DNA of 39,490 nucleotides from Okeania sp. SIO3I5 (GTDB lineage: Bacteria; Cyanobacteriota; Cyanobacteriia; Cyanobacteriales; Microcoleaceae): positions 1 through 39,490 of the forward strand of contig NZ_JAAHHT010000070.1 in assembly GCF_010672085.1 (NCBI RefSeq), read 5' to 3'. Positions 3,922-39,490 of this stretch are shown piece by piece. The stretch's first letter is position 1, and every line of letters begins with the position of its first letter. The notes below the pieces were generated by a model. The model did no database searches, was not told the DNA's origin, and saw nothing but the letters and a program-made list of their open reading frames with translations. The position numbers and the translations under genes are program-made.

Positions 3922-5687
3922 ATGAATAAGGCTAAAACACTAAAAAGAAGATTGGGTAATCCAAAGCCCTTTTTAAGCGTGGCATGGGATACAGACGATA
4001 TACCGAATCAAGTTAGTATCAATCCTAATCTCAAATGGAAGGATATTAATTGGAAGAGGGTTGAGAAGAATGTATTTAAGTTGCCGGCATTTAATTTACA
4101 AAGCATCCAGCCGTGGCAAAATCCGCAAGATGCGTAAATACTCTCATACTTCTGACCAAAAGTTATTACGCCTTGTTGCTAGCTGTTAGGCGCGTGACCC
4201 AAGATAACCAAGGCAAGAAAACTGCTGGTGTGGACGGAATTAAAAACCTTCCCCCTATGCACAGACTCAACCTGGTTGATTTATTAAACACGCGATATCT
4301 CAAAGCAAGCCCGACCCGTAGAGTCTGGATACCAAAACCAGGAAGGGATGAAAAGAGACCTCTTGGAATCCCTACAATGTAGGACCGTGCATTGCAAGCT
4401 CTGGTGAAGTTGGGTATGGAGCCAGAGTGGGAGGCAAGATTTGAACCTAATAGCTATGGTTTTAGGCCAGGACGGTCAACACATGATGCCATTAGTGCCA
4501 TCTTTGGAAGCATTAATCAAAAGCCCAAATATGTATTAGATGCTGACATATCCAAATGTTTTGACCGAATTAACCATGATGCACTGTTGAGAAAAATAGG
4601 TCAATCCCCCTATCGACGATTAGTCAAACAATGGCTAAAGTCCGGGGTTCTCGACAATAAACAATTCTCAAACACTGTGGAAGGTACGCCACAGTCCGGG
4701 GTGATATCACCTCTACTAGCAAACATCGCCCTACACGGTATGGAAGAAAGACTAAAAGAGTTTGCCGGAACCATAGACCTTAAAAATACAAAAGGCCAGC
4801 AGAGAAGTTGGCAAACGAAGTGTCAAAGTCTTTCCCTAATACGCTATGCTGACGACTTCGTTATCCTACACGAAGATATCAAAGTAGTGTTACAAGCTAA
4901 AACCGTAATAAAGGAATGGTTAAGCCAGATAGGATTAGAACTAAAACCAGAAAAAACCAAAATTGCCCACACCTTGGAGGAATATGAAGGAAATCAACCC
5001 GGATTTGACTTCTTAGGATTCACAATCAGGCAATGGAGGGTTAAGTCAACCAAACAAGGATTTAAAACACTGATTAAACCATCCTCCAAGAGTATTAAAA
5101 CTCATTATCGAAAATTGGCGGATATATTCGACTCTAATAAAACCGTCTCGACAAAGGCTCTAATAGCTAAATTAAACCCGGTAATCAGAGGATGGGCTAA
5201 TTACTTTTCCACCGTAGTCAGTAAAAAGATATTCAGCAAAATGGATATGCTTCTATGGAAAAGACTAGGTCGATGGGTGAGTAGAAGGCATCCAAACAAG
5301 TCAGCAGCCTGGGTAAAGAAAAAGTATTTCCCCGATGTTAAAGATACCAGGAATTGGTTACTTAACGACGGCGAATATATACTAAACTTACACGCAGATG
5401 TTCCTATTATACGGCATATCAAAGTGAAAGGTAATAAATCCCCATTAGACGGCGATTGGACTTATTGGAGCAATAGAATCGGAAAATATCCAGGCGTAAG
5501 GAAGGAAGTCACAACGCTGTTAAAACGGCAAAAGAATAAATGCGCATTTTGTGGGCTAACCTTTAGTCCATCTGACCTTATGGAAGTAGACCATATAAAA
5601 CCAAGGTCTAAAGGTGGTGACAACACTTATCAGAATAAACAACTGTTGCACCGACATTGCCACGACCGTAAAACTGCCTTTCAATAA
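3922..5687 (+). pseudogene. ltrA: Group II intron reverse transcriptase/maturase with HNH domain, disrupted
   Basis: An RT-maturase-HNH protein of LtrA type in three pieces. The N-terminal piece (3922-4137) loses frame at about 4093. The continuation KASSRGKIRKMRKY lies in a second frame, then shifts again near 4150 to the frame giving KSYYALLLAVRRVTQDN. That frame meets an amber codon at 4380-4382, where homologues have lysine (GIPTM then stop then DRALQAL). The rest is intact: FEPNSYGFRPGRS, the catalytic YADD at 4845-4856, a thumb/maturase region, and an HNH motif with CAFC, VDHIKPRSKGGDN and HRHC at the C-terminus (5539-5684). An intact protein would be about 590 aa. It should not make active maturase from this copy; splicing could depend on another copy in trans. 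Confidence 0.88.
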
Positions 5688-5878: not shown

Positions 5879-6089
5879 AGTCACCCGTCATATCCGTCAA
5901 ATCCATCATAGAGAAAGGTTTAAGCCTTTGCAGACCCTTGAAACCCATAATTCTCGTTGCCACGAATCATGGCCATAATATTTCTTTCCCTACATGGCAA
6001 AAACATGACAAAAAACATGACAAGATTAAAAATAGACAGCTCCGAGAAAAACAGGATCAGGCCAATCAACCCTAAACCTTTACAAATAG

Positions 6090-6173
6090 TGGGGGTGGTG
6101 GGACTTGAACCCACACGACTGTTAAGGTCAACGGATTTTAAGTCCGTAGCGTCTACCATTCCGCCACACCCCC
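6090..6173 (-). tRNA. trnL: tRNA-Leu (anticodon UAA), intronless
   Basis: The acceptor stem is GGGGGTG paired with CACCCCC, with discriminator A. The anticodon stem ACGGA/TCCGT holds the loop CTTAAAA, giving anticodon TAA. There is a long variable arm, as expected for a class II tRNA, and a T arm GTGGG-TTCAAGT-CCCAC. Length is 84 nt and CCA is not encoded. Many cyanobacteria carry a group I intron in this anticodon loop; here the loop is continuous. Confidence 0.93.
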
Positions 6174-21757: not shown

Positions 21758-21861
21758 TTGATATAATATCTACCTCGGACAAACCCGGTTTCTGATAACA
21801 CTTCCGTTGCCAACCGGATTTGATATAATTAATGAAATTTGATTTAATCAGAGGTAAAATT

Positions 21862-24800
21862 ATGGAAGCAGGTATAGTCGGATTAGCTGGTTGGGGATTA
21901 TCAAAAATTGCCGATTCTTTGTGGGATACTGCTTGGGAAAAAGGAGGGAAAAGTCTCACTGAATCTCTCAATAAATCTGATATTGAAAAGGCAATTAAAT
22001 CTGGAGAAAAAGCAGTTCAAGAATGGGAAAAACAACTCTCTCCTCAACAATTTTTGTTTTATTCTGCCAAACAAGATGGTTGGAATGGAGCTAACAAATT
22101 TCTGAGTCAATATTTTCAGAATATTGCTGTTTTGAACGAGTTACAAAAACCATTGATTAATCAAGGCAAACCAGATATTGATATTTTGATTGCCATTTTT
22201 CAACAGGAAGCTGAAACTAAAAATATTCAATTAAATCAAGAAAGTCTACGGCGGTGGTTAGAAATTTTTGTTAATGCTTATTTTCAACAAACTGATACTT
22301 ATATTAAATTCCAGATTGCTAAACAAAATTATTTTGAACAGTTAGCTAATTGGTTTGATGATGTGAAATTTGCTGGCATTTCTGTGCCTGGGCAAGAGGT
22401 GGAAAAATCAGAGAAATTAGCTAATATTTTTGTGATGCCAGATGTGGTAGAAGATATCTCAACGGGAGGGGGTTGGGAACAGGATTTATTTTTAGGAGGA
22501 ACTGGGGAACTGGAAAGAGAACTATTGGCCAATAGTACAGGTAGAAAATTTTTAGCTTCGGAATTATTGACTCAAAGTCGATCGCGTAAATTTGTGATCT
22601 TGGGTGCGCCTGGTTCGGGGAAAACAACTTTGATGAGTTATTTTGCGGTGATGTTGGCATCGATCCCCCCAACCCAGGAGTCAATCCCCCCAACCCCCCT
22701 TCGTAAGGGGGGCTATTCCGTTTCCCCCCTTTCAAAGGGGGGCTATTCCGTTTCCCCCCTTTCAAAGGGGGGCCAGGGGGGATATCTTGATGCTACGCTC
22801 CGCGCTCCCAATACCGAATCTTCTTCTCCCTTTCATCAGGAGTCAATCCCCCCAACCCCCCTTCGTAAGGGGGGCTATAATGCCGAAAGCTTTGTGGATG
22901 ATAGAGATAAGGCTGATGCTACGCAGCGCGATCGCAATCCCGAATCTTCATCTTCTTCCCCCCTTTCAAAGGGGGGCCAGGGGGGATATCTAGGTTTAGA
23001 TCCAAACACCGACTGGTTGCCAATTTTAATCAGGATGCGCGACTTGGCAAGACATCCAGACAAAAGTATTCTGGAATATGTTCGGATTTTTGCTGAAAAA
23101 ACGATGGCAGTCAAAACTTTACCGACGGGATTTTTTGAGCATTGGTTGGAAGATGGCAGGGCGTTAATATTGCTTGATGGTTTGGATGAAGTGGCAGAAG
23201 AAGGCAAACGTTATGATGTTGTCAGACGCATTGAGAATTTTTTAGGGCAGTTTGACAGAAACCGGGCAATTATTACATCTCGTCCGGCGGGGTATCGGCG
23301 CGACTTTTTCCGCACTGCCGAATTTCCCCACTATCAAATGCAGTCGTTTGATGATGAGAAAATTTCGGCGTTTATCAATAATTGGTATGACAGTCGGTTT
23401 AAAGATAAAACGGAGGCAGAAAGGCGGAAGGAGAGTTTGCAAAAGGCGTTGGATGATAACGATCGGATTAAATTATTGGCACGGAATCCTTTGTTGTTGA
23501 CGATTATTGCTTTGATTCATCGGTATCAGGCGGTTTTGCCGAAAGAAAGACATCGACTTTATGACAAGGCGGTGGAAACGTTGTTAATTTCTTGGGATGC
23601 GAATAAGGAGTTGAGTAGTCATGGAAGGTTGCAATATTTGGGTTTGGATGACGTGCGGAGGTTGATGGAGTTGTTGGCATATTGGGTGCATACTCAGGGA
23701 AATGTTGGCAGTGGCGAGGGTGGTACGTTGATAGATAAGGATGAGTTGATAGAGCAGTTGAGTCGGGAGATTAAGGATTTGAAGCAGGTGCAGTTGTATC
23801 AGTCGAAGGAGGAGGCAGAAAGATTTGTAGATTTGATTCGGGAACGCACTGGTTTGTTGAATGAGCAGGGGCAAGACTGTTATGCTTTTGTGCATAAGAC
23901 TTTTCAGGAATATTTGTGTGCTGAGGAAATTGACTATCAGTTGGAGAATGAGTTTGATTTTGGGATTATTTTGAATGCTATTCGAGAATATTTGCATGAT
24001 GCTCATTGGCGAGAGGTTTTATTGTTGTTGATAGCGCAACAAAAGCCGAAAAATGCTGCCAAGGCAATTCGAGCAGTTTTGAATAATGGTAGTGAGTATG
24101 AGGAGTGGTTACATCGGGATTTGTTTTTTGCTGGTAGTTGTTTGGTGGAAAATCCGAAGGGGTTGCGGGGTGTTGATGGTGAGTTGGTGCAGGAGATTTT
24201 GGAGAAGTTGGTTGAGTTGGAGGTGAATAGTGAGGAGCAGGTTGGCGAGAAAGTTCGAGACCAGGTACATGAAATTCTTTGTAGTCTGTATGAAACTGAT
24301 TTTGACGTGCAAGCTCTGGAGATGTTGAAAGGACAGTCAAATTTAATTGATGAGTTGCGCTTATTCCAATATCAAGCAGAATTAGGAGGAGAAGATGAAG
24401 TAATCGCAATATTGCTAGCACGACTCCAAGATGAAAATTTGTATGTCCGGAAAAGAGCGATCGCTGATGCTTTCAAAGTAGGTAAGAGTTCAGAAGCTTT
24501 AGTCAATGTCTTACTAACACGGCTTCAAGATGATGATTATTATATACGTTGGAGGTCAATCATAGTCTTAGGTAAATTGGGAAACAGTTCAGAAACAGTA
24601 GTAACTACTCTATTAGCACGGCTTCAGGATGAAGATTATAGTGTGCGTAGCTGGGCAGTTTCAGCCCTAGCTCAATTGGGAAATGCTTCAGAAACAGTAG
24701 TCAGCGCCCTACTAGCAAGACTTCGAGATGAAGATTATAGCGTGCGTGGGTGGGCAGCTTCCGCCTTAGCTCAATTGGGCAAATTGCAAAAGAACTCAGA

Positions 24801-25404
24801 AACAGTAGTAACTGCTCTACTAGCACTGCTTCAGGATGGAGATTCTGATGTACATTGGATAGCAGCTATAGCTTTAAGCTATTTAGGACAAAGCTCAGAA
24901 ACAGTAGTAACTACCTTATTAAGGCTTCTTCAAAATGAAAATTCTGATGTGCAAGGTTGGGCAGCTTCAGCTTTAGGCAAATTAGGTAATAGTTCAGAAA
25001 CTGTCATCAGTGCCCTATTAGCACTGCTTCAGAATGAGAATTCTTCTCCCCGTTGGCAGATAGCGACAGCTCTAGGCAGATTGGGCAATAGTTCAGAAAC
25101 TGTCATCAGTGCCCTACTAGCACTGCTTCAGGATGAAGATTCTGATGTGCGTAGAAACGCAACTTCAGCTTTAGGCAAATTGAACAATAGTTCAGAAACT
25201 TTAGTTAATGCTTTAGTGGCAAGACTTGAAGATAAGGATTATTTTGTGTGTCATAGGGCAGCCGAAGCCTTGGGTAAATTAGGCAAAAAATCCGACAATA
25301 TCCTCCCCACTATTGTTCAATGGATTCAACAACATCAAGATTCAGAATATGTCGGCAGAGGTGTTGATGCGCTGTGGTATTTGGTTGTAGGTGAGGAGAG
25401 CTAA
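21862..25404 (+). CDS. NACHT-domain STAND ATPase with C-terminal HEAT repeats
   Basis: A large cytoplasmic signalling ATPase of about 1180 residues. The N-terminal helical region (1 to about 235) begins MEAGIVGLAGWGLSKIADSL; the effector type was not recognised. The NACHT module has Walker A LGAPGSGKTT (247-256) and Walker B ALILLDGLDEV (434-444), then ITSRPAGYR and FVHKTFQEYLCAEEI typical of NACHT ATPases. Between Walker A and the next strand, residues about 267-380 are translated palindromic repeat DNA (see 22660-23000). The C-terminus (about 845-1180) is nine or ten HEAT-like repeats of about 33 residues, probably the sensor. ATG at 21862 is preferred over the in-frame ATG at 21832 because AGAGG lies just upstream. 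Bacterial NACHT proteins are known antiphage defence ATPases; that role here is inference. Confidence 0.87.
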   Translation: MEAGIVGLAGWGLSKIADSLWDTAWEKGGKSLTESLNKSDIEKAIKSGEKAVQEWEKQLSPQQFLFYSAKQDGWNGANKFLSQYFQNIAVLNELQKPLINQGKPDIDILIAIFQQEAETKNIQLNQESLRRWLEIFVNAYFQQTDTYIKFQIAKQNYFEQLANWFDDVKFAGISVPGQEVEKSEKLANIFVMPDVVEDISTGGGWEQDLFLGGTGELERELLANSTGRKFLASELLTQSRSRKFVILGAPGSGKTTLMSYFAVMLASIPPTQESIPPTPLRKGGYSVSPLSKGGYSVSPLSKGGQGGYLDATLRAPNTESSSPFHQESIPPTPLRKGGYNAESFVDDRDKADATQRDRNPESSSSSPLSKGGQGGYLGLDPNTDWLPILIRMRDLARHPDKSILEYVRIFAEKTMAVKTLPTGFFEHWLEDGRALILLDGLDEVAEEGKRYDVVRRIENFLGQFDRNRAIITSRPAGYRRDFFRTAEFPHYQMQSFDDEKISAFINNWYDSRFKDKTEAERRKESLQKALDDNDRIKLLARNPLLLTIIALIHRYQAVLPKERHRLYDKAVETLLISWDANKELSSHGRLQYLGLDDVRRLMELLAYWVHTQGNVGSGEGGTLIDKDELIEQLSREIKDLKQVQLYQSKEEAERFVDLIRERTGLLNEQGQDCYAFVHKTFQEYLCAEEIDYQLENEFDFGIILNAIREYLHDAHWREVLLLLIAQQKPKNAAKAIRAVLNNGSEYEEWLHRDLFFAGSCLVENPKGLRGVDGELVQEILEKLVELEVNSEEQVGEKVRDQVHEILCSLYETDFDVQALEMLKGQSNLIDELRLFQYQAELGGEDEVIAILLARLQDENLYVRKRAIADAFKVGKSSEALVNVLLTRLQDDDYYIRWRSIIVLGKLGNSSETVVTTLLARLQDEDYSVRSWAVSALAQLGNASETVVSALLARLRDEDYSVRGWAASALAQLGKLQKNSETVVTALLALLQDGDSDVHWIAAIALSYLGQSSETVVTTLLRLLQNENSDVQGWAASALGKLGNSSETVISALLALLQNENSSPRWQIATALGRLGNSSETVISALLALLQDEDSDVRRNATSALGKLNNSSETLVNALVARLEDKDYFVCHRAAEALGKLGKKSDNILPTIVQWIQQHQDSEYVGRGVDALWYLVVGEES
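22660..23000. repeat. Palindromic repeat cluster inserted in frame within the NACHT domain
   Basis: At least five C6/G6 palindromes occur in about 340 bp: CCCCCCTTCGTAAGGGGGG twice and CCCCCCTTTCAAAGGGGGG three times, with linkers that include GATGCTACGC segments. The translation is low-complexity (SIPPTPLRKGGY, SVSPLSKGGQGGY). The insert preserves the frame and lies between the Walker A helix and the strand starting NTDWLPILIRMRDLA. The hairpins would be very stable in mRNA. Confidence 0.88.
24410..25300 (+). repeat. HEAT-repeat coding array, about 99-bp period
   Basis: Nine successive units follow the pattern (T)VV.ALLA.LQDED.DVR..A..ALGKLGNSSE. DNA identity between adjacent units is high, for example CAGAAACTGTCATCAGTGCC occurs in neighbouring units near 24997 and 25096. 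This points to amplification or homogenisation after the array formed. Confidence 0.8.
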
Positions 25405-26037
25405 TGTGAAGTTTCGTCGGTTGGGTTGACGTTCGCGTAAGCGTTGCGTAGGAAAGGAAACACAACAATAATTAGGTAGATGTTGGGTTACGCTGTCGCT
25501 AACCCAACCTACTCAATTAAGTTTTAACTATTGTCCAATAGATTCAACAACATCAAGATTCAGAATATGTTGGTAGAGGTATTGATGTGCTGTGGTATTT
25601 AGTGGTAGGTTCCGAAAGCTAATGTGAAGTTTCGTAGGTTGGGTTGACGGAGGAAACCCAACAATAATTAGATATATGTTGGGTTGCATTGTGGTATTTA
25701 GTTGTAGGTTCCGAAAGCTAATGTGAAGTTTCGTCGGTTGGGTTGACGTTCGCGTAAGCGTTGCGTAGCAAAGGAAATACAACAATAATTAGGTAGATGT
25801 TGGGTTACGCTGTCGCTAACCCAACCTACTCAATTAAGTTTTAACTATTGTCCAATAGATTCAACAACATCAAAATTCAGAATATGTCGGCAGAGGTATT
25901 GATGCGCTGTGGTATTTAGTTGTAGGTTCCGAAAGCTAATGTGAAGTTTCGTAGGTTGGGTTGACGGAGGAAACCCAACAATAATTAGATAGATGTTGGG
26001 TTGCGCTGTCGCTTAACCCAACCTACTCAATTAACTA
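25311..26037 (+). repeat. Degraded tandem copies of the NACHT gene 3' end
   Basis: Three units start with TATTGT(T/C)CAAT(G/A)GATTCA at 25311 (inside the gene), 25529 and 25846. Each repeats the last 30 or so codons (QHQDSEYVGRGVDALWYLVVG) followed by an intergenic block built on GTAGGTTGGGTT and AACCCAACCTAC palindrome arms. Unit 2 has an extra internal partial copy. Codons outside the gene have stops and no start, so they are non-coding duplications. Confidence 0.85.
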
Positions 26038-33882: not shown

Positions 33883-34170
33883 GTGTCTGTAAAGACTATA
33901 GAAAAACCTACCACTTCCACAGTCCGCAAAACTGCACCCCGTTATCGTGTTTTACTCCATAACGATGATTTTAACAGCATGGAGTATGTAGTGCAGGTAT
34001 TGATGAAGACTGTACCGAGTTTAACTCAACCTCAAGCTGTTAGTATAATGATGGAAGCTCACTCGAATGGTATTGCATTGGTAATTATCTGCGCTTTAGA
34101 ACCGGCTGAGTTCTACTGCGAAAATTTGAAAAATCATGGACTAACCAGCACCATAGAACCTGATGAGTGA
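33883..34170 (+). CDS. clpS: ATP-dependent Clp protease adaptor ClpS
   Basis: An N-degron adaptor that hands substrates with N-terminal Phe, Leu, Tyr or Trp to ClpC/ClpA-ClpP. The 95-residue protein has a flexible N-terminal extension (1-20) and the folded core YRVLLHNDDFNSMEYVVQVL (22-41), including the HNDD..M motif of the substrate pocket, then LTQPQAVSIMMEAHSNG. The C-terminal AEFYCENLKNHGLTSTIEPDE is normal. It starts at GTG (33883) without a strong ribosome site. Cyanobacteria usually have two ClpS paralogues; this looks like the canonical ClpS1. Second-strongest alternative: none. Confidence 0.95.
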   Translation: MSVKTIEKPTTSTVRKTAPRYRVLLHNDDFNSMEYVVQVLMKTVPSLTQPQAVSIMMEAHSNGIALVIICALEPAEFYCENLKNHGLTSTIEPDE

Positions 34171-34559
34171 TTTAATTTATAACAATAGAAACCGGGTTTC
34201 TCGACTGAGGAACTCGGTTTCTTGTTTTTACATGGAAATAGGAAGTAGGGAGTAGGGAGAAATATCATGTTCGGTTGAATAGTTATAAATAAAAATGGAG
34301 GAGTAATGAGTAATGAGTAATGAGTAATGAGTAAGGAGTAAGGAGTCAGGAGTCAGAAGGGAAGAAGAGGGAATTTTAAGCTATAAAGAAAAAGAAGAAA
34401 AAGTTTTTTTATCACGCTCTTATCCGGACATGGTATAAGGAGTAGGGAGTAGGCAGAAGTAATTATCCATTATCCATTAATGAAAGACGTCTAATTTATA
34501 TCTTAATTATAAACCTAAATATCCTAATTCATAGTTTGATTTACTAACGGCAAGTTTTT
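34171..34559. other. Intergenic region downstream of clpS
   Basis: It begins with an inverted pair AAACCGGGTTTCTCG and AACTCGGTTTCTT (34190-34224), which could act as a clpS terminator followed by TTTTT. It then holds a GAGTAAT tandem run (about 34302-34334) passing into GGAGTCA units (about 34339-34357), and a TCCATTATCCATTA fragment. No gene. Confidence 0.5.
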
Positions 34560-35417
34560 ATGCCTAATTTAATATTCACTAAAATAGCAAATTTTTCCGC
34601 TCCTGCAAGAATAACAATTTTCATTTTAGCATTACTTTTGGTGTGGATACCACTGGCAATACCGATATATCTTTTGGTGGAAAATGTTAATAATGAAAGT
34701 ATTTTAGCGATCGCTCTACTCTACATTGAGTTTATTATTTTAGTCAGGTTTTGGGGAAAGAAGGTTTATCGGGAACCCCAACTATTACATCACTACGGTT
34801 TAGTAATAAATAGGCGTAATTTTCAAGAATTTTTGCAAGGTTTAGGAATAGGTTTATTTAGTCTATTTAGTCTGTTTATATTAGAAATATTTTTGGGGTT
34901 GGTAGTATGGCAGTCACCCTCAGAACAGTTACCCCAAATTATTCTTGAAGGTTTATTAGTATCTATAGGTATTGGTTTTGCTGAAGAGTTATTATTTCGG
35001 GGTTGGTTATTAGATGAGTTGGAGAGAAATTATCAACCAAAAGTAGTTTTATGGATGAGTAGTATTGTTTATGCAGTGCTACATTTTATTAAACCTTTGG
35101 AGGAAATTTTACGAACTTGGCTGCAATTTCCGGGTCTAGTTTTATTGGGTTTAATATTTGTTTGGGCAAAACGTAGTAGTAGGAAAAAATTAAATAAATT
35201 TACTGATAAAAAACAGGAATTATTGGGTTTGCCAATGGGTATTCATAGTGGTTTAGTTTGGGGATATTACATTATTAATGTGGGTAATTTAGTCAAATAT
35301 TCTGAAGAGGTTGGAGAGTGGTTAGTAGGAATAGATGGAAATCCTTTGGCGGGTGTAATGGGGTTGTTATTTTTAGGAGCGAACGCTCTGTGGATAAGAA
35401 ATAAAATATCTGATTAA
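34560..35417 (+). CDS. CPBP family intramembrane metalloprotease
   Basis: A 285-residue polytopic membrane protein of the CPBP (CAAX prenyl protease 2 / Rce1-like, Abi) family, about seven hydrophobic segments. The three signature motifs are present: EELLFRG with paired glutamates (about 141-147, in GIGFAEELLFRGWLLDELER), a second motif AVLHFIKP with histidine (about 172-179), and GIHSGLVWGYYI with histidine (about 227-238). Bacterial members cut membrane substrates; some modify peptides or confer bacteriocin self-immunity. The substrate is unknown here. It is a single gene with ATG at 34560 and no strong ribosome site. A repeat-containing gap of about 230 bp follows it. Confidence 0.87.
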   Translation: MPNLIFTKIANFSAPARITIFILALLLVWIPLAIPIYLLVENVNNESILAIALLYIEFIILVRFWGKKVYREPQLLHHYGLVINRRNFQEFLQGLGIGLFSLFSLFILEIFLGLVVWQSPSEQLPQIILEGLLVSIGIGFAEELLFRGWLLDELERNYQPKVVLWMSSIVYAVLHFIKPLEEILRTWLQFPGLVLLGLIFVWAKRSSRKKLNKFTDKKQELLGLPMGIHSGLVWGYYIINVGNLVKYSEEVGEWLVGIDGNPLAGVMGLLFLGANALWIRNKISD

Positions 35418-35649
35418 GAAAATAATTTTAGTAAAAATTTTTGCCTACTTATTTCCCATAAAATCTTGAATTTATGGCAATATTGATGATATTTTGATAT
35501 CTAGCAATTCGCTCTTATGTTGTAAAATTTGATCGTAGGGATTTGCTCTCCAAACTAAAGGGAAAATGGGATTTGGCAACCCAACCCCTACAGTTTTTTT
35601 CAAAAATAATTTAGGATTGTTATAATTGTAAGTATAAAAGGAAAAAATA
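35418..35649. other. Short intergenic region with a palindromic repeat
   Basis: GTAGGGATTTGCTCTCCAAA (about 35535) and GGCAACCCAACCCCTAC (about 35576) form imperfect arms related to the hairpin after trpA. AAAAGGA before 35650 is the probable ribosome site of the next gene. Confidence 0.4.
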
Positions 35650-37458
35650 ATGGCCTATTCACCTCAATCAAGAGTAGAAGAAAGGGATGATAATCTGTCT
35701 AGAGTCAACTATTTACCAATATTAAAAGGAATCTTACAGATTCTTCGAGGCAATGAAAAGACAAAAAAAGAATCTGCATTTTTGCTAGACAAAGATAACA
35801 GACTAACTTTACTAGCAGAGCGCATAACTGGTTCTGTTATTGAACTATCCAAACAAAAACCAGACGATTTTCCACCACCTTTAAGAGGATCTACAAAATC
35901 GGCATCTGTTAATTTTGCAAATGAATCATTATTTAGAAAATATATTCAGAAAATTCAACAAGAATTAAAATTACAATTAGATGAAATATTAGACATTAAT
36001 CAAGATAATGCTGAATCTATTCAGAAATGGCAAGCACATTTTCTCAGCAGCTTAGAAGAATTTGTTAAACAAGATGGTTTCTTTAATTTTTCAATTGAGC
36101 AAGAAAGACAATTAAAGTTACAAAGAATCAACACAAATAATGTTAAAGCTGATGAGTCAGCTCAGAAACATTTCCGAGGTAAGATTAGGATAAAAATTCC
36201 TACAGAGTTTGACAAACAATTGTTAGAAGCAATTCATAATGAACTAAATAGAGAAAACGGATTTTACAGTAGTTGTTATGAAGATGAAATTGATAGATTA
36301 AATGATTTGTATGATGATATTTCTGAAGATGGCGACTCTAGAATTAATAATCTGAAGAAATTAATTCAGGAAGAAATTACAGGGAAAATTAGAGCAGATA
36401 TTTCCCTGGAATTTCTACAAATTTTTGTAGACAAAATACCTAATGCCAAAAAACAAGGTGAAGGATATGAACTTTTAGTAGATTTTTTGAATCGTTTAAA
36501 AGAATTTGACGACTTTTTAAGCCGGGATATACATACTGTTAGTTTATTTGGCAATGATTATAAGTTACAAGATTTATTTGGCAGAGGAGATAAATGGGAT
36601 TTATTACCTGTAAAAGTAAAAATTGAAGCTCGTCAAGCAGAAGGATTAGATAAAACTAAAGAGTGGCATGAATTTACTTATGCGATAGATTTTAAATTGA
36701 ATGGTAGAACAAATCGTACAAATAGTAAAAACGTATTTGAGCATAATTGTAAATTATTGAATCCTGAGAGTGAAGAGGGTTATAAGTCAGAGATTAAAAA
36801 CCGTGGAAATGATAATAAGAGAAAAGCAGGTTTTTATGGAAAGTTGGTAAAAATTATATTTCTGTACTGCTTTGTATTTTATCAGTTTGATGATTCCAAG
36901 GAATCACAAGATAAGGTAGTAGAGCGTATTTTTCAGAGGTTATCAGCAAGCACCACAGAAGCAGAACAAATACAATTTATAACTAAGTTTTCTGATTATC
37001 TTAAAAATCAATCACAGGCAGAAATAAAATTAGATAAAATTGTTGGGTATATCAAAGATATATGCTCTGAAAAAAATGCAGCTTGGCAGACTATTCAAAT
37101 CGATGGATATTTAAGTCTGAGAAAGGGGTTGTTAAAACATCCATCTGAGCTAAATGAAATTTTAGACAATCAATCTTTTTTAACAGATGAACTATCTCAA
37201 AAAAACGAAGGTATTAGTTTTAAATCTGCATTGCAATTTCTCAAGTTTGTCAAAGATAGAGACGAAAATAATTTGTATGATATTCAAGTAAAAGTAGATA
37301 TTGATGATATTAGGTACAAACTAGAAGGTGAAGCAGAAACAGGAAATTTTACTTTAGTTAATGATGGGGAATATCGACACTTACTTGTAATGTTTGTTGA
37401 GCGAACAGAATTATTAAAACTATGGGTAATTCAACAATTAATAATGAATAATGAATAA
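35650..37458 (+). CDS. Large hypothetical protein, probable 5' part of a split gene
   Basis: A 602-residue ORF I do not recognise. It is soluble, lysine- and glutamate-rich, mostly helical in composition (VNYLPILKGILQILRGNEKT near the start), with a central segment VSLFGNDYKLQDLFGRGDKW and VKVKIEARQAEGLDKT, and a probable beta-rich stretch at about 540-575 (YDIQVKVDIDDIRYKLEGEA). The last natural-looking residues are RTELLKLWVIQQ. The final five residues (LIMNNE region) come from an AATTAATAATGAATAATGAA simple repeat that begins the inserted block at 37441-37560. The reading after that block resumes as GWTPIKKLQLEQLQKILPSL, so this and the next ORF may once have been one gene. AAAAGGA precedes ATG. 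Confidence 0.6.
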   Translation: MAYSPQSRVEERDDNLSRVNYLPILKGILQILRGNEKTKKESAFLLDKDNRLTLLAERITGSVIELSKQKPDDFPPPLRGSTKSASVNFANESLFRKYIQKIQQELKLQLDEILDINQDNAESIQKWQAHFLSSLEEFVKQDGFFNFSIEQERQLKLQRINTNNVKADESAQKHFRGKIRIKIPTEFDKQLLEAIHNELNRENGFYSSCYEDEIDRLNDLYDDISEDGDSRINNLKKLIQEEITGKIRADISLEFLQIFVDKIPNAKKQGEGYELLVDFLNRLKEFDDFLSRDIHTVSLFGNDYKLQDLFGRGDKWDLLPVKVKIEARQAEGLDKTKEWHEFTYAIDFKLNGRTNRTNSKNVFEHNCKLLNPESEEGYKSEIKNRGNDNKRKAGFYGKLVKIIFLYCFVFYQFDDSKESQDKVVERIFQRLSASTTEAEQIQFITKFSDYLKNQSQAEIKLDKIVGYIKDICSEKNAAWQTIQIDGYLSLRKGLLKHPSELNEILDNQSFLTDELSQKNEGISFKSALQFLKFVKDRDENNLYDIQVKVDIDDIRYKLEGEAETGNFTLVNDGEYRHLLVMFVERTELLKLWVIQQLIMNNE

Positions 37459-37560
37459 TTAATAATTACCTCTCCTTGAAAAGAAGAGGATTGACTAAAA
37501 GGAAAATTTTTATTTATTATCCCCTATCCAAGGGGAGGCTTTAAACCAAAATTTTTCGGT
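37441..37560. repeat. Repeat block interrupting the right-end locus
   Basis: Two parts: AATTAATAATGAATAATGAA-type simple repeat, and a copy of the dispersed GGGGAGGCTTTAAACC ...TTTTTCGGTA repeat that also occurs at about 32610-32650 and 32775-32812. Stops in all forward frames within it separate two coding stretches. Confidence 0.7.
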
Positions 37561-39054
37561 AAAGGTTGGACTCCTATTAAAAAATTACAGCTAGAACAAC
37601 TACAAAAAATTCTGCCTAGCTTGACAAAAGAAGAGGGTGAAAAAATCATATCAGGCGAACAAAAATTCGATATTAAAAAGATACAAGCAAGAAAAACTCT
37701 GACAAACTATCCTAAATCTGTAGTTATTACCTACGACAGTTCGCGACAATTTACTAATTTAGAATCAGAAGTACAAAGTATTGAAGATAGACGCAAAGAA
37801 TGTTTTTATTATCAGATAGTTTATAGCATTATTGTTATCCTGGGAATTTTGGTTTTATCTGAAAGACTTTCAATTACCAAAAATAATCCCAAGAAGAGAA
37901 TCAAAACTTTTATTTCCTTATTCAGAAGTCAAAGTTCGAGTGAAGAAAATTCGACTTCCTTCGATACTTTTATTGCTACTTTCTGTAAAGATTTAGAATT
38001 AGTTCTGGATATAGAAAAATCAATTTTATGCAGCACGCAAGGTTTGGATATAAGTAGTAAATTGTCAGCAAATCAAAAACAGTACAAAAAAAATAATGCT
38101 TTATTATCTCTATACTCAAAACTTCCGAGTCGAATTCAATTAGACAAAGAAATAGATTTTCTCAATGAGTCTAAAATTGATAAAGTAGGAATTATTGTTG
38201 TATCGAGTCACGAGTGCGATGCTCAAAATCAAGGAGACGAAAAAAAATCAATTGTATTTGGCAGAGTCTACACAATAACAAGGAAAAATACATTATTTGA
38301 AATCAAATCATTTGCCTCTTTTTGTAAATCCGAATTTAGTCACAAAAGGTTTGCCTCAAGTATAGTTGTAGATCAAGTAAGTCGGTTAGATAAAGCTGGA
38401 TATAAACACATTTTTTATGTCTCAAAGACACCCTATCAAGATAAGTTTAATTTTTCTCTAGCAGATGAAGAAAAAGATGATGATACAGAGAGATTATTTT
38501 TTATGAATAGTGATGTTATTAAACAGATGAAGGCAGTAAATAATTCCATAACTATATATCCAGTCTTTGTCTCGAATTATCGAATTTTTGATTTAAAACG
38601 AGGCAATAAAGATAAAGGATGTTCATACTATCTAGCTTCCGTAGAAGATGTCAGTAAAATTGAACCTCTTACTAGAAATGCTGCTGCATTTTTAAACCTA
38701 TATAATTTAGAGGCAGTTGACAAAAAGAAGTCTTCTTATAATAGTGTCATTAGTTATGCTTCCCCAATTAATATTTATGCAGCAGATGTGTTAGATAATA
38801 GGGAGATTATACATGGATTATTTGGTACCGATACTAATACTTCTGACAGGGATACTCTGTTTTTATTTATGGCAATGCTGCATTATGCTAAAAATGAAAA
38901 ATTTGGTAAATTTTCGACTATTAAACTTAATCCTTATGAGGATATTTTTAAGGATGTAGGATATAAATCTACTAAATTTTATCACCCACAATCTTCTGCT
39001 AAATTTAATTTATTGGCATTTGTTTATGAAGTCTTTCATTCTGTGGTTGGCTAA
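37561..39054 (+). pseudogene. Large hypothetical protein, downstream part, no credible start codon
   Basis: Coding from about KGWTPIKKLQLEQLQKILPS at 37561 to a TAA at 39052-39054, about 497 codons. A TTG at 37621 could be forced as a start, but it lies inside sequence that is plainly coding upstream, and the first internal ATG is far downstream. Visible features are one hydrophobic segment FYYQIVYSIIVILGILVLSE (about 80-100), a strand-rich core KVGIIVVSSHECD, then IVVDQVSRLDKAGYKHIFYV and SITIYPVFVSNYRIF, and a C-terminus rich in aromatic residues. The family was not recognised; a nuclease- or PIWI-like fold crossed my mind, but no catalytic set could be established. The reading frame continues past the TAA (see 39055-39490). 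Confidence 0.55.
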
Positions 39055-39490
39055 TTTTCTGGAAAAAATATTTATGATGATACTTATGACAAAGGTGGCG
39101 AATTTTCCCTGGAGTTAGGTTTCTCTAAACTGCCTTTTTTCCTACAAAGAAAATTCGGAGAAAATTTGGCTGTACTTTCTCAAAAGGAAGAAAAAATATT
39201 TGAGAAATTTATGGTGGAGGGCTAGAAAATTTGCCTGGAGATGTCTGTCGGAAAAATCCACGAGTCAAATATTATGGGAAAAATCATAATTTTTGGCGAG
39301 AGTTGAGGCAAAGGCGGCAAATTTTTCCTTGGTTTAGGTTTCTCTAAACTACCGTTTTTTCTACAAAGAAAATTTGGGGAAAATTTGGCTGTACTTTCTC
39401 AAAAGGAAGAGAAAATATTTGAGAAATTTATGGTGGAGGGGTGGGAAATTTCCCTGGAGATGTCTCTGGGAAAAACGCGCAAGTCAAATA
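39055..39490 (+). pseudogene. In-frame continuation with a 219-bp tandem duplication and three different stops, cut by window end
   Basis: Past the TAA at 39052 the same frame reads FSGKNIYDDTYDKGGEFSLE then LGFSKLPFFLQRKFGENLAV and SQKEEKIFEKFMVEG, then TAG (39223-39225), more sequence, TGA (39304-39306), and then a second copy of the block (LGFSKLPFFLQRKFGENLAV again), which continues open as GWEISLEMSLGKTRKSN to the edge. The two copies start at 39091 and 39310, exactly 219 bp (73 codons) apart. This is either a dead C-terminal repeat domain or an unusual repeat array; the rest of the array is outside the window. Confidence 0.6.

Follow-up and report, generated by a model that had tools for sequence, protein, structure and literature searches.

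A probable second copy of an Argonaute-like and helicase gene pair, its Argonaute-like gene split by a dispersed repeat, in Okeania sp. SIO3I5

Background

DdmDE, a system of plasmid defence, consists of a helicase-nuclease and an Argonaute-like protein. Together with ApsAB it reportedly belongs to the recently discovered plasmid-removing Argonaute-plus-helicase pairs, which are said to come from mobile islands. Here we describe a locus of comparable make-up at the right end of a 39,490-nucleotide stretch of DNA from the cyanobacterium Okeania sp. SIO3I5 (NZ_JAAHHT010000070.1; the whole stretch is called the window below). The window is an entire contig (C531 in our numbering) of an assembly of 562 contigs and 10.5 Mb, which therefore contains nothing further to the right. 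The locus is likely to be a fast-evolving second copy (A*-B*) of a two-gene system made up of an Argonaute-like protein (A) and a helicase (B), in which A would recognise DNA and B would unwind or degrade it; A* is split by a repeat and B* is open.

For ApsAB, mutation of the helicase or of the MID lysine abolished plasmid destabilisation, and mutation of the nuclease had a partial effect, according to the available portion of PMC11096173, which also names DdmDE plasmid defence and reports ApsAB-like systems in some cyanobacteria. For pPIWI-RE, R-loop-directed restriction has been proposed (PMC3702460, available in part). By word search, the accessible text of PMC12477606 mentions neither cyanobacteria nor ApsB, pPIWI-RE or DdmE.

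Two open reading frames of the window form one gene

A preliminary description, based on the window alone, had seen an open reading frame (ORF) at 35650-37458 that ends in simple-repeat sequence, and a second coding stretch that has no start codon and resumes after a dispersed repeat. It took them for either a large gene of more than 1,200 codons that is dying or a gene with a C-terminal repeat domain, in a family that it could not name, and suggested a search for an intact homologue. The two ends are as described: the first ORF (602 amino acids) terminates inside AT-rich simple sequence, and coding restarts with GWTPIKK... at 37564, directly after a copy of the repeat.

Homologues of the two halves were sought in 98 related cyanobacterial genomes, the own genome counted. 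The C-terminal half (37561-39051) has matches in 66 of them and the N-terminal half (35650-37455) in 64; only the C half is matched in three genomes (G034, G036 and G080) and only the N half in one (G022). Intact homologues were found: in 20 fetched loci both halves match the same ORF in 23 out of 23 homologous ORFs (981-1,046 amino acids), the N half within residues 1-589 and the C half from residue 549-640 to at most about 20 residues from the end. A named collection, for which 120 relatives were found and the best 80 kept, contains 76 loci with cyanobacterial titles. A is a single ORF of about 960-1,050 amino acids in 75 of these, and the remaining one is cut by a contig end.

The two window ORFs are thus one gene, split here by the dispersed repeat. 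The split is not a chance effect, since both ORFs match one ORF in the relatives and since 39 other long copies of the repeat (124-154 bp matched, 90-100% identical) were present among the 40 scored of 1,226 candidates. The flanks of the 29 copies that were compared are unlike. Of the two earlier proposals, the large interrupted gene therefore holds and the repeat domain does not; the homologues are not the separate genes that would have spoken against a single one.

Protein A has the predicted fold of an Argonaute-like protein

As the preliminary description had it, the protein family lacks a name. Neither the window halves nor the intact homologues match any family model of Pfam, NCBIfam, PADLOC or PHROGs above the cut-off (best sub-threshold Pfam match: DUF6860, E 0.0082), a sequence search of solved structures with A was empty at E <0.05, and none of the PMC papers listed in the literature search names the family. 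A model was predicted with AlphaFold for an intact homologue from Microcoleus sp. EPA2 (L101:6001-9036), using a 70-row alignment with the window halves as separate rows; its mean predicted local distance difference test score (pLDDT) is 85.9 and its predicted template modelling score 0.82.

In a Foldseek search of the PDB with this model, entries of the Argonaute superfamily occupy ranks 1-38 and 40-42 among the best 50 of 418 matches, with TtAgo first; for two of these, 4kpy and 8jsi, the title leaves the protein unnamed. At rank 39 stands a chain from a HerA-NurA complex; NurA has a PIWI-like RNase H fold. Ranks 43, 44, 46 and 49 are Endonuclease V, which has such a fold as well (PMC3702460, in its available part), and the rest of the best 50 is noise. 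Foldseek does not return Argonautes by default: the model of B, searched likewise, gives helicases. In this predicted model, then, A has the MID-PIWI fold of the Argonaute/PIWI superfamily.

The MID pocket of Argonaute proteins carries the motif (Y/R/H)-x3-K ... Q ... K. In A, Q681-G682 is present in 68 of 68 rows and K705 in 67 of 68, with a Q-to-K spacing of 24, which we take to be that of TtAgo. The invariant Gln-Gly and the near-invariant Lys fit a guide-binding MID domain in the model. Some observations weigh against the Argonaute-like assignment. The 26 Argonaute chains matched at E <=0.001 reach low TM-scores (0.16-0.26 of the query), and known MID pockets have a Y-x3-K pair that A does not conserve, H670 being found in 58 of 68 rows. 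With hhalign, no link emerged between A and the pPIWI-RE or prokaryotic Argonaute (pAgo) alignments, a result that carries no weight because the control of pPIWI-RE against pAgo was equally negative.

The Argonaute superfamily includes inactive members. A conserved acid is absent from residues 722-730 and 798-812 of A, where the first and third catalytic positions are expected from secondary structure rather than from superposition, and the GLD and RDG aspartates are kept in 12 pAgos of the same phylum. D733 and E748, each invariant in 68 of 68 rows, keep another active site in A possible. The Piwi model PF02171 matches in 17 of 194 cyanobacterial genomes, not at A loci and not in the genome of the window. 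From these features we infer that A is a guide-binding, non-cutting Argonaute-like protein.

Protein B is an SF2 helicase

Helicase_C is found above the Pfam cut-off in all five B proteins that were searched, and the motifs PGIGKTT (Walker A), DEIT (DExx) and QVIYRGRG (motif VI) are conserved. The predicted structure (pLDDT 81.2) has superfamily 2 (SF2) helicases as its best Foldseek matches, among them HrpA, UvrB and BLM, with DinG at rank 19 among the best 50 of 1,217. Motifs and predicted fold together identify B as an SF2 helicase.

Residues 1-300 of B form an alpha/beta domain in which E14, D162, D179 and K214 are invariant (53-row alignment); the proteobacterial members carry Glu at 179. 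The N-terminus resembles PD-(D/E)XK enzymes with the Lys replaced or moved, and B is a possible nuclease on this ground. The sequence D179-x-S181, with Ser where the nuclease Lys is expected, speaks against such an activity. No conserved (D/E)-x-K was found in the C-terminus of B. The PADLOC matches of B to mad8 (2.6e-5), NsnC (9.2e-5), Avs1b (2.6e-4), MkoA (5.8e-4) and type IV DinG (6.9e-4) are weak, at the level of a P-loop or helicase, and do not indicate membership of those systems.

A and B are a conserved gene pair

The intact pair consists of A (about 1,010 amino acids) followed by B (about 1,210 amino acids). In 62 of the 76 named loci (57 complete, 5 cut or split) B comes after A on the same strand; in one it comes before A, and in eight there is too little sequence to judge. 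The gaps between the 62 pairs are zero or negative in 25 cases and at most 300 bp in 50, with a maximum of 3.1 kb. Against a strict coupling stand five loci with about 6 kb of room downstream of A and no B. The pairing of A and B is nevertheless conserved, and the suggestion that the order of the parts could reveal an undescribed system has been borne out by it. In three Microcoleus-type genomes (L052, L053 and L054) the order is A1-B-A2, with the genes overlapping or abutting and A1 and A2 belonging to different branches.

In many loci the upstream neighbours are housekeeping genes, which from their sequences we take to be purQ-like (20/76) and pheT-like (18/76). Both genes of the pair also occur on six conjugative cyanobacterial plasmids. 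Cupriavidus and Acinetobacter plasmids carry distant pairs (A 1.6e-10 and B 1.8e-91 in the former, A 1.1e-8 and B 6e-79 in the latter), and on an Acetobacter plasmid B alone is recognisable (4.4e-55). No relative was found in viral contigs, by a pattern-based search, or in phages.

With B* as the query and at most two candidates scored per genome, 50 of 386 cyanobacterial genomes match, from 30 of 142 genera. The nearest relatives of B* among the 385 other genomes are 33-37% identical over most of the length, or 39% over a 402-residue fragment. In trees of rows chosen from those at hand (33 for B, 34 for A), A* and B* lie on very long, unplaced branches; the canonical A and B of the same genome group with those of Okeania sp. 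SIO2C9 with 100/100 support. There is also a second class of longer B-like helicases, with open frames of about 1,270-1,340 amino acids (for example G441:C214, G151:C1 and G119:C1), which are about 30% identical to B* from residue 407 or so and may be nearer to the proteobacterial type.

Proposed function

Most likely, by analogy, A and B form an undescribed system of the DdmDE/ApsAB/pPIWI-RE kind, in which A recognises DNA and B unwinds or destroys it, and the pair would probably be a guided system that polices DNA. A would probably bind a short guide or a nucleic-acid end via its MID domain. Since the classical catalytic aspartates seem to be missing from its PIWI-like domain, A would recognise the target and not cut it. 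Recruitment of B would follow, to unwind the target DNA or translocate along it, and B would degrade it if the N-terminal PD-(D/E)XK-like domain is active. This division into guide-directed recognition by A and destruction by B is drawn from the analogy with the ApsAB mutants and with the restriction proposed for pPIWI-RE. Guide binding, the loss of catalysis in A, the nuclease activity of B and an action against foreign DNA such as plasmids are what we infer here.

A role in defence is favoured by the occurrence of pairs on plasmids and by the speed at which A*-B* has diverged. The neighbourhood speaks against pure defence, A-B mostly adjoining housekeeping genes rather than defence islands. 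A-B could instead be a cyanobacterial housekeeping machine that acts, for example, on R-loops, in replication or on plasmid copy number. The stable places beside the purQ-like and pheT-like genes and the presence of the C half in 66 of the 98 relatives agree with such a role, as does the action of DinG-type helicases on R-loops (PMC3702460, in the part available). We nevertheless consider it less likely: the C half is unmatched in the other 32 relatives, so that the pair is dispensable, it is carried by the conjugative plasmids, and its extra copies diverge fast.

Relation to described systems

The proposed guided A-B system shares several properties with the Argonaute-plus-helicase systems known so far. 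Like DdmDE, it pairs a helicase that is a possible nuclease with an Argonaute-like protein. Compared by titles alone, neither DdmD nor DdmE appears among the best 50 Foldseek matches of A (of 418) or B (of 1,217).

The likeness to ApsAB, as described in the available portion of its report, is closer. Both systems combine an Argonaute-like protein that has a QG...K signature with an SF2 helicase that has a (in B, possible) nuclease domain, and in both the two proteins are of unknown family by sequence. A-B might thus be a cyanobacterial branch of ApsAB, with the same division of labour, the QG-K signature in ApsB and the cyanobacterial ApsAB-like systems of PMC11096173 in its favour; some A-B pairs may even be in the lists of that paper. 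We regard this as rather improbable. The gene order of ApsAB is the reverse of that of A-B, and of its motif Y[X]3K[X]nQG[X]nK only QG and K are present in A, the Y-x3-K pair not being conserved and the Q-to-K spacing being 24 as against 58. The ApsAB-type helicase, with DELH and a C-terminal PD-(D/E)XK, is not seen in B either: B has DEIT, its possible nuclease is N-terminal (that of ApsA lies at 1420-1435), and it ends at 1,200-1,283 amino acids. Finally, ApsAB is found in genomic islands, whereas A-B is mostly chromosomal, beside housekeeping genes.

In pPIWI-RE, the gene of a PIWI protein of about 1,000 amino acids is likewise accompanied by those of a helicase and a restriction-type nuclease, in the order restriction endonuclease, DinG helicase, PIWI (PMC3702460, as far as available), whereas A-B puts A first in 62 of 76 loci. 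A further mark of pPIWI-RE is a conserved Arg and Glu in the beta-sheet extension. The pPIWI-RE model PF13032 matches in 7 of 194 cyanobacterial genomes, and the matches listed do not coincide with an A locus (controls 0/14). The genome of the window contains a separate pPIWI-RE-type gene (L194, G000:C209, 2421-5453; PF13032 26.2 bits, cut-off 25), which stands behind a 617-residue ORF that resembles a helicase piece. The classical long pAgos provide the best fold matches of A; in contrast to them, A is longer, is paired with a helicase, has no PF02171 match and seems to lack the GLD and RDG aspartates. We class the pair as one of the Argonaute-plus-helicase kind and as a member of neither pPIWI-RE nor ApsAB, being set apart from the former by PF13032 and gene order and from the latter by motif and domain order.

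The state of the copy in the window

We regard A* as a spare, fast-evolving second copy; the genome has a canonical A and B at other sites, and the adjacency of A* to B* is deduced as set out below. It looks as if A* was broken recently, since neither half contains further stops and a copy of the repeat on another contig (C518) is identical to the interrupting one over 133 bp. The repeat lies just ahead of the MID-like part, where A* also carries extra residues. Against the proposed explanation weigh K705, which is Ser in A*, and E748, which is Arg. Several near-invariant positions of the family are altered in A*, so that its divergence either preceded the break or came about by drift after it.

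An alternative is that A* works as a split Argonaute, its N half and MID-PIWI half being made separately and then reassembled. The break is indeed near the border of the MID-PIWI half, the two halves otherwise retain open frames of 602 and 497 codons, and Archaeoglobus AfAgo with its N-L1-L2 partner is a reported precedent (PMC10954474, available in part). The second half, however, has no good start: the earliest in-frame candidate is TTG 37621, upstream of which no ribosome-binding site is visible, followed by further TTGs and by no ATG before 38503. Moreover, the interrupting repeat is common and recurs in identical form elsewhere, so that the break looks recent, and several near-invariant residues have changed. 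On these grounds a working split protein seems decidedly improbable.

In the 98-genome search the second half is matched as far as its residue 490-495 of 497, a fragment in G047 being the sole exception. Since the homologue matches terminate there, the family normally ends at TAA 39052, a finding that the preliminary description had named as one that would count against its reading. Beyond it, TAG 39223 and TGA 39304 follow in the same frame, within the spacer, and the in-frame duplication of 219 bp (73 codons) is present, as had been reported. The two tandem units (see Table 1) are 85% identical over 202 nucleotides without a gap. Of their 30 differences, 4, 11 and 15 affect codon positions 1, 2 and 3, respectively (chi-square 6.2, p ~0.045, calculated by hand); the sequence past 39052 is therefore at best weakly coding-like, and a profile of the partner gene has no match to the unit.

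The same 219-bp repeat was located in one other place in the genome, the start of contig C182. This search weighs less than a complete one would, 40 of 106 candidates having been scored. C182 opens in a third, distinct unit, 87% identical to the first unit of the window (181 alignment columns) and 94% to the second (105). Its array covers positions 1-179, and after 58 bases the ORF of B* (1,221 amino acids) begins at base 238. B* is a divergent, open helicase. Compared with the helicase encoded after A in a same-genus genome, its identity is 34%, and that of a copy on contig C521 is 78%. It seems that A* and B* are separated by a tandem array in which the assembly breaks, and the order A* (broken), array, B*, with C531 adjoining C182, is suggested by the common repeat and by the gene order in relatives. 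The canonical pair is interrupted likewise, its A ending contig C550 and its B contig C521, each within an array of units of about 127 bp.

Tandem arrays of unlike units are found in the A-B spacers of several Okeania-type genomes (L099 3292-3727, L098 12170-12396, L158 4320-7421, L161, L167 and L173); that of L158 has 24 copies of a 126-bp unit. The units resemble the 3' end of A in C550 (76%) and L167 (80-90%), and do not in L158, L161, L173 and the window. The 219-bp unit is unlike the array that follows the canonical A, and it resembles neither the beginning of B* nor the 3' end of A*. An origin from the 5' part of the helicase gene, suspected by eye, was rejected, the B profile giving nothing below E 0.1 in any frame.

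The first proposal, made from the in-frame 73-codon unit and in keeping with the lean of the differences to third positions, was that the frame runs on beyond 39052 into a C-terminal repeat domain larger than the window. It can hardly be maintained: the homologue ends coincide with 39052, the frame is interrupted by three stops, on C182 the array stops ahead of B*, and the spacers of other pairs contain tandem arrays as well. The 219-bp repeat is spacer, probably in front of the helicase gene.

Layout of the locus and other features of the window

The features of the locus are collected in Table 1. No Rfam match was found across positions 34000-39490.

Table 1. Features of the A* locus at the right end of the window
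Feature	Position	Strand	Remark
N-terminal half of A*	35650..37429	+	open frame; counterpart is residues up to about 585-589 of intact ORFs of 980-1,050 amino acids
Dispersed repeat of about 133 bp, interrupting A*	37430..37562	.	holds the stop of the first ORF (37456-37458)
C-terminal, MID-PIWI-like half of A*	37564..39051	+	matches the C-terminal part of the same intact ORFs
MID counterpart within the second half of A*	starts at about 37714	+	predicted fold, by homology with model m79d42db275f0
TAA, normal stop of the gene	39052..39054	+	ends of homologues
Start of the putative A*-B* spacer, tandem array of 219-bp units	39055..39490	.	array cut by the contig end
Tandem units in the spacer	39070-39271 and 39289-39490		219 bp spacing

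Elsewhere in the window, a large ORF at 21832-25404, which we take to be a NACHT-type NTPase with HEAT-like repeats, contains a short repeated element read in frame as SPLSKGG-like peptides. Immediately 3' of it lies a 317-bp tandem duplication (25373-26004, 95% identical). A reverse transcriptase-maturase-like ORF with an HNH-like end (4392-5687), presumably of the architecture known from group II introns, is located near a tRNA-Leu gene (6089-6173).

Conclusion

As A is unmatched by the models of Pfam, NCBIfam, PADLOC and PHROGs, surveys that rely on such models would miss it. Tentatively, filamentous cyanobacteria may possess a near-core, mostly vertically inherited pair, made up of a helicase and an Argonaute-like protein missed by these models, for the guided surveillance of DNA or R-loops; the pair would also have spread to conjugative plasmids, reach proteobacteria and shed fast-evolving copies such as A*-B*. 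The presence of the pair in 66 of 98 genomes, often at stable chromosomal sites, raises the question of what systems of this kind do as near-core genes.

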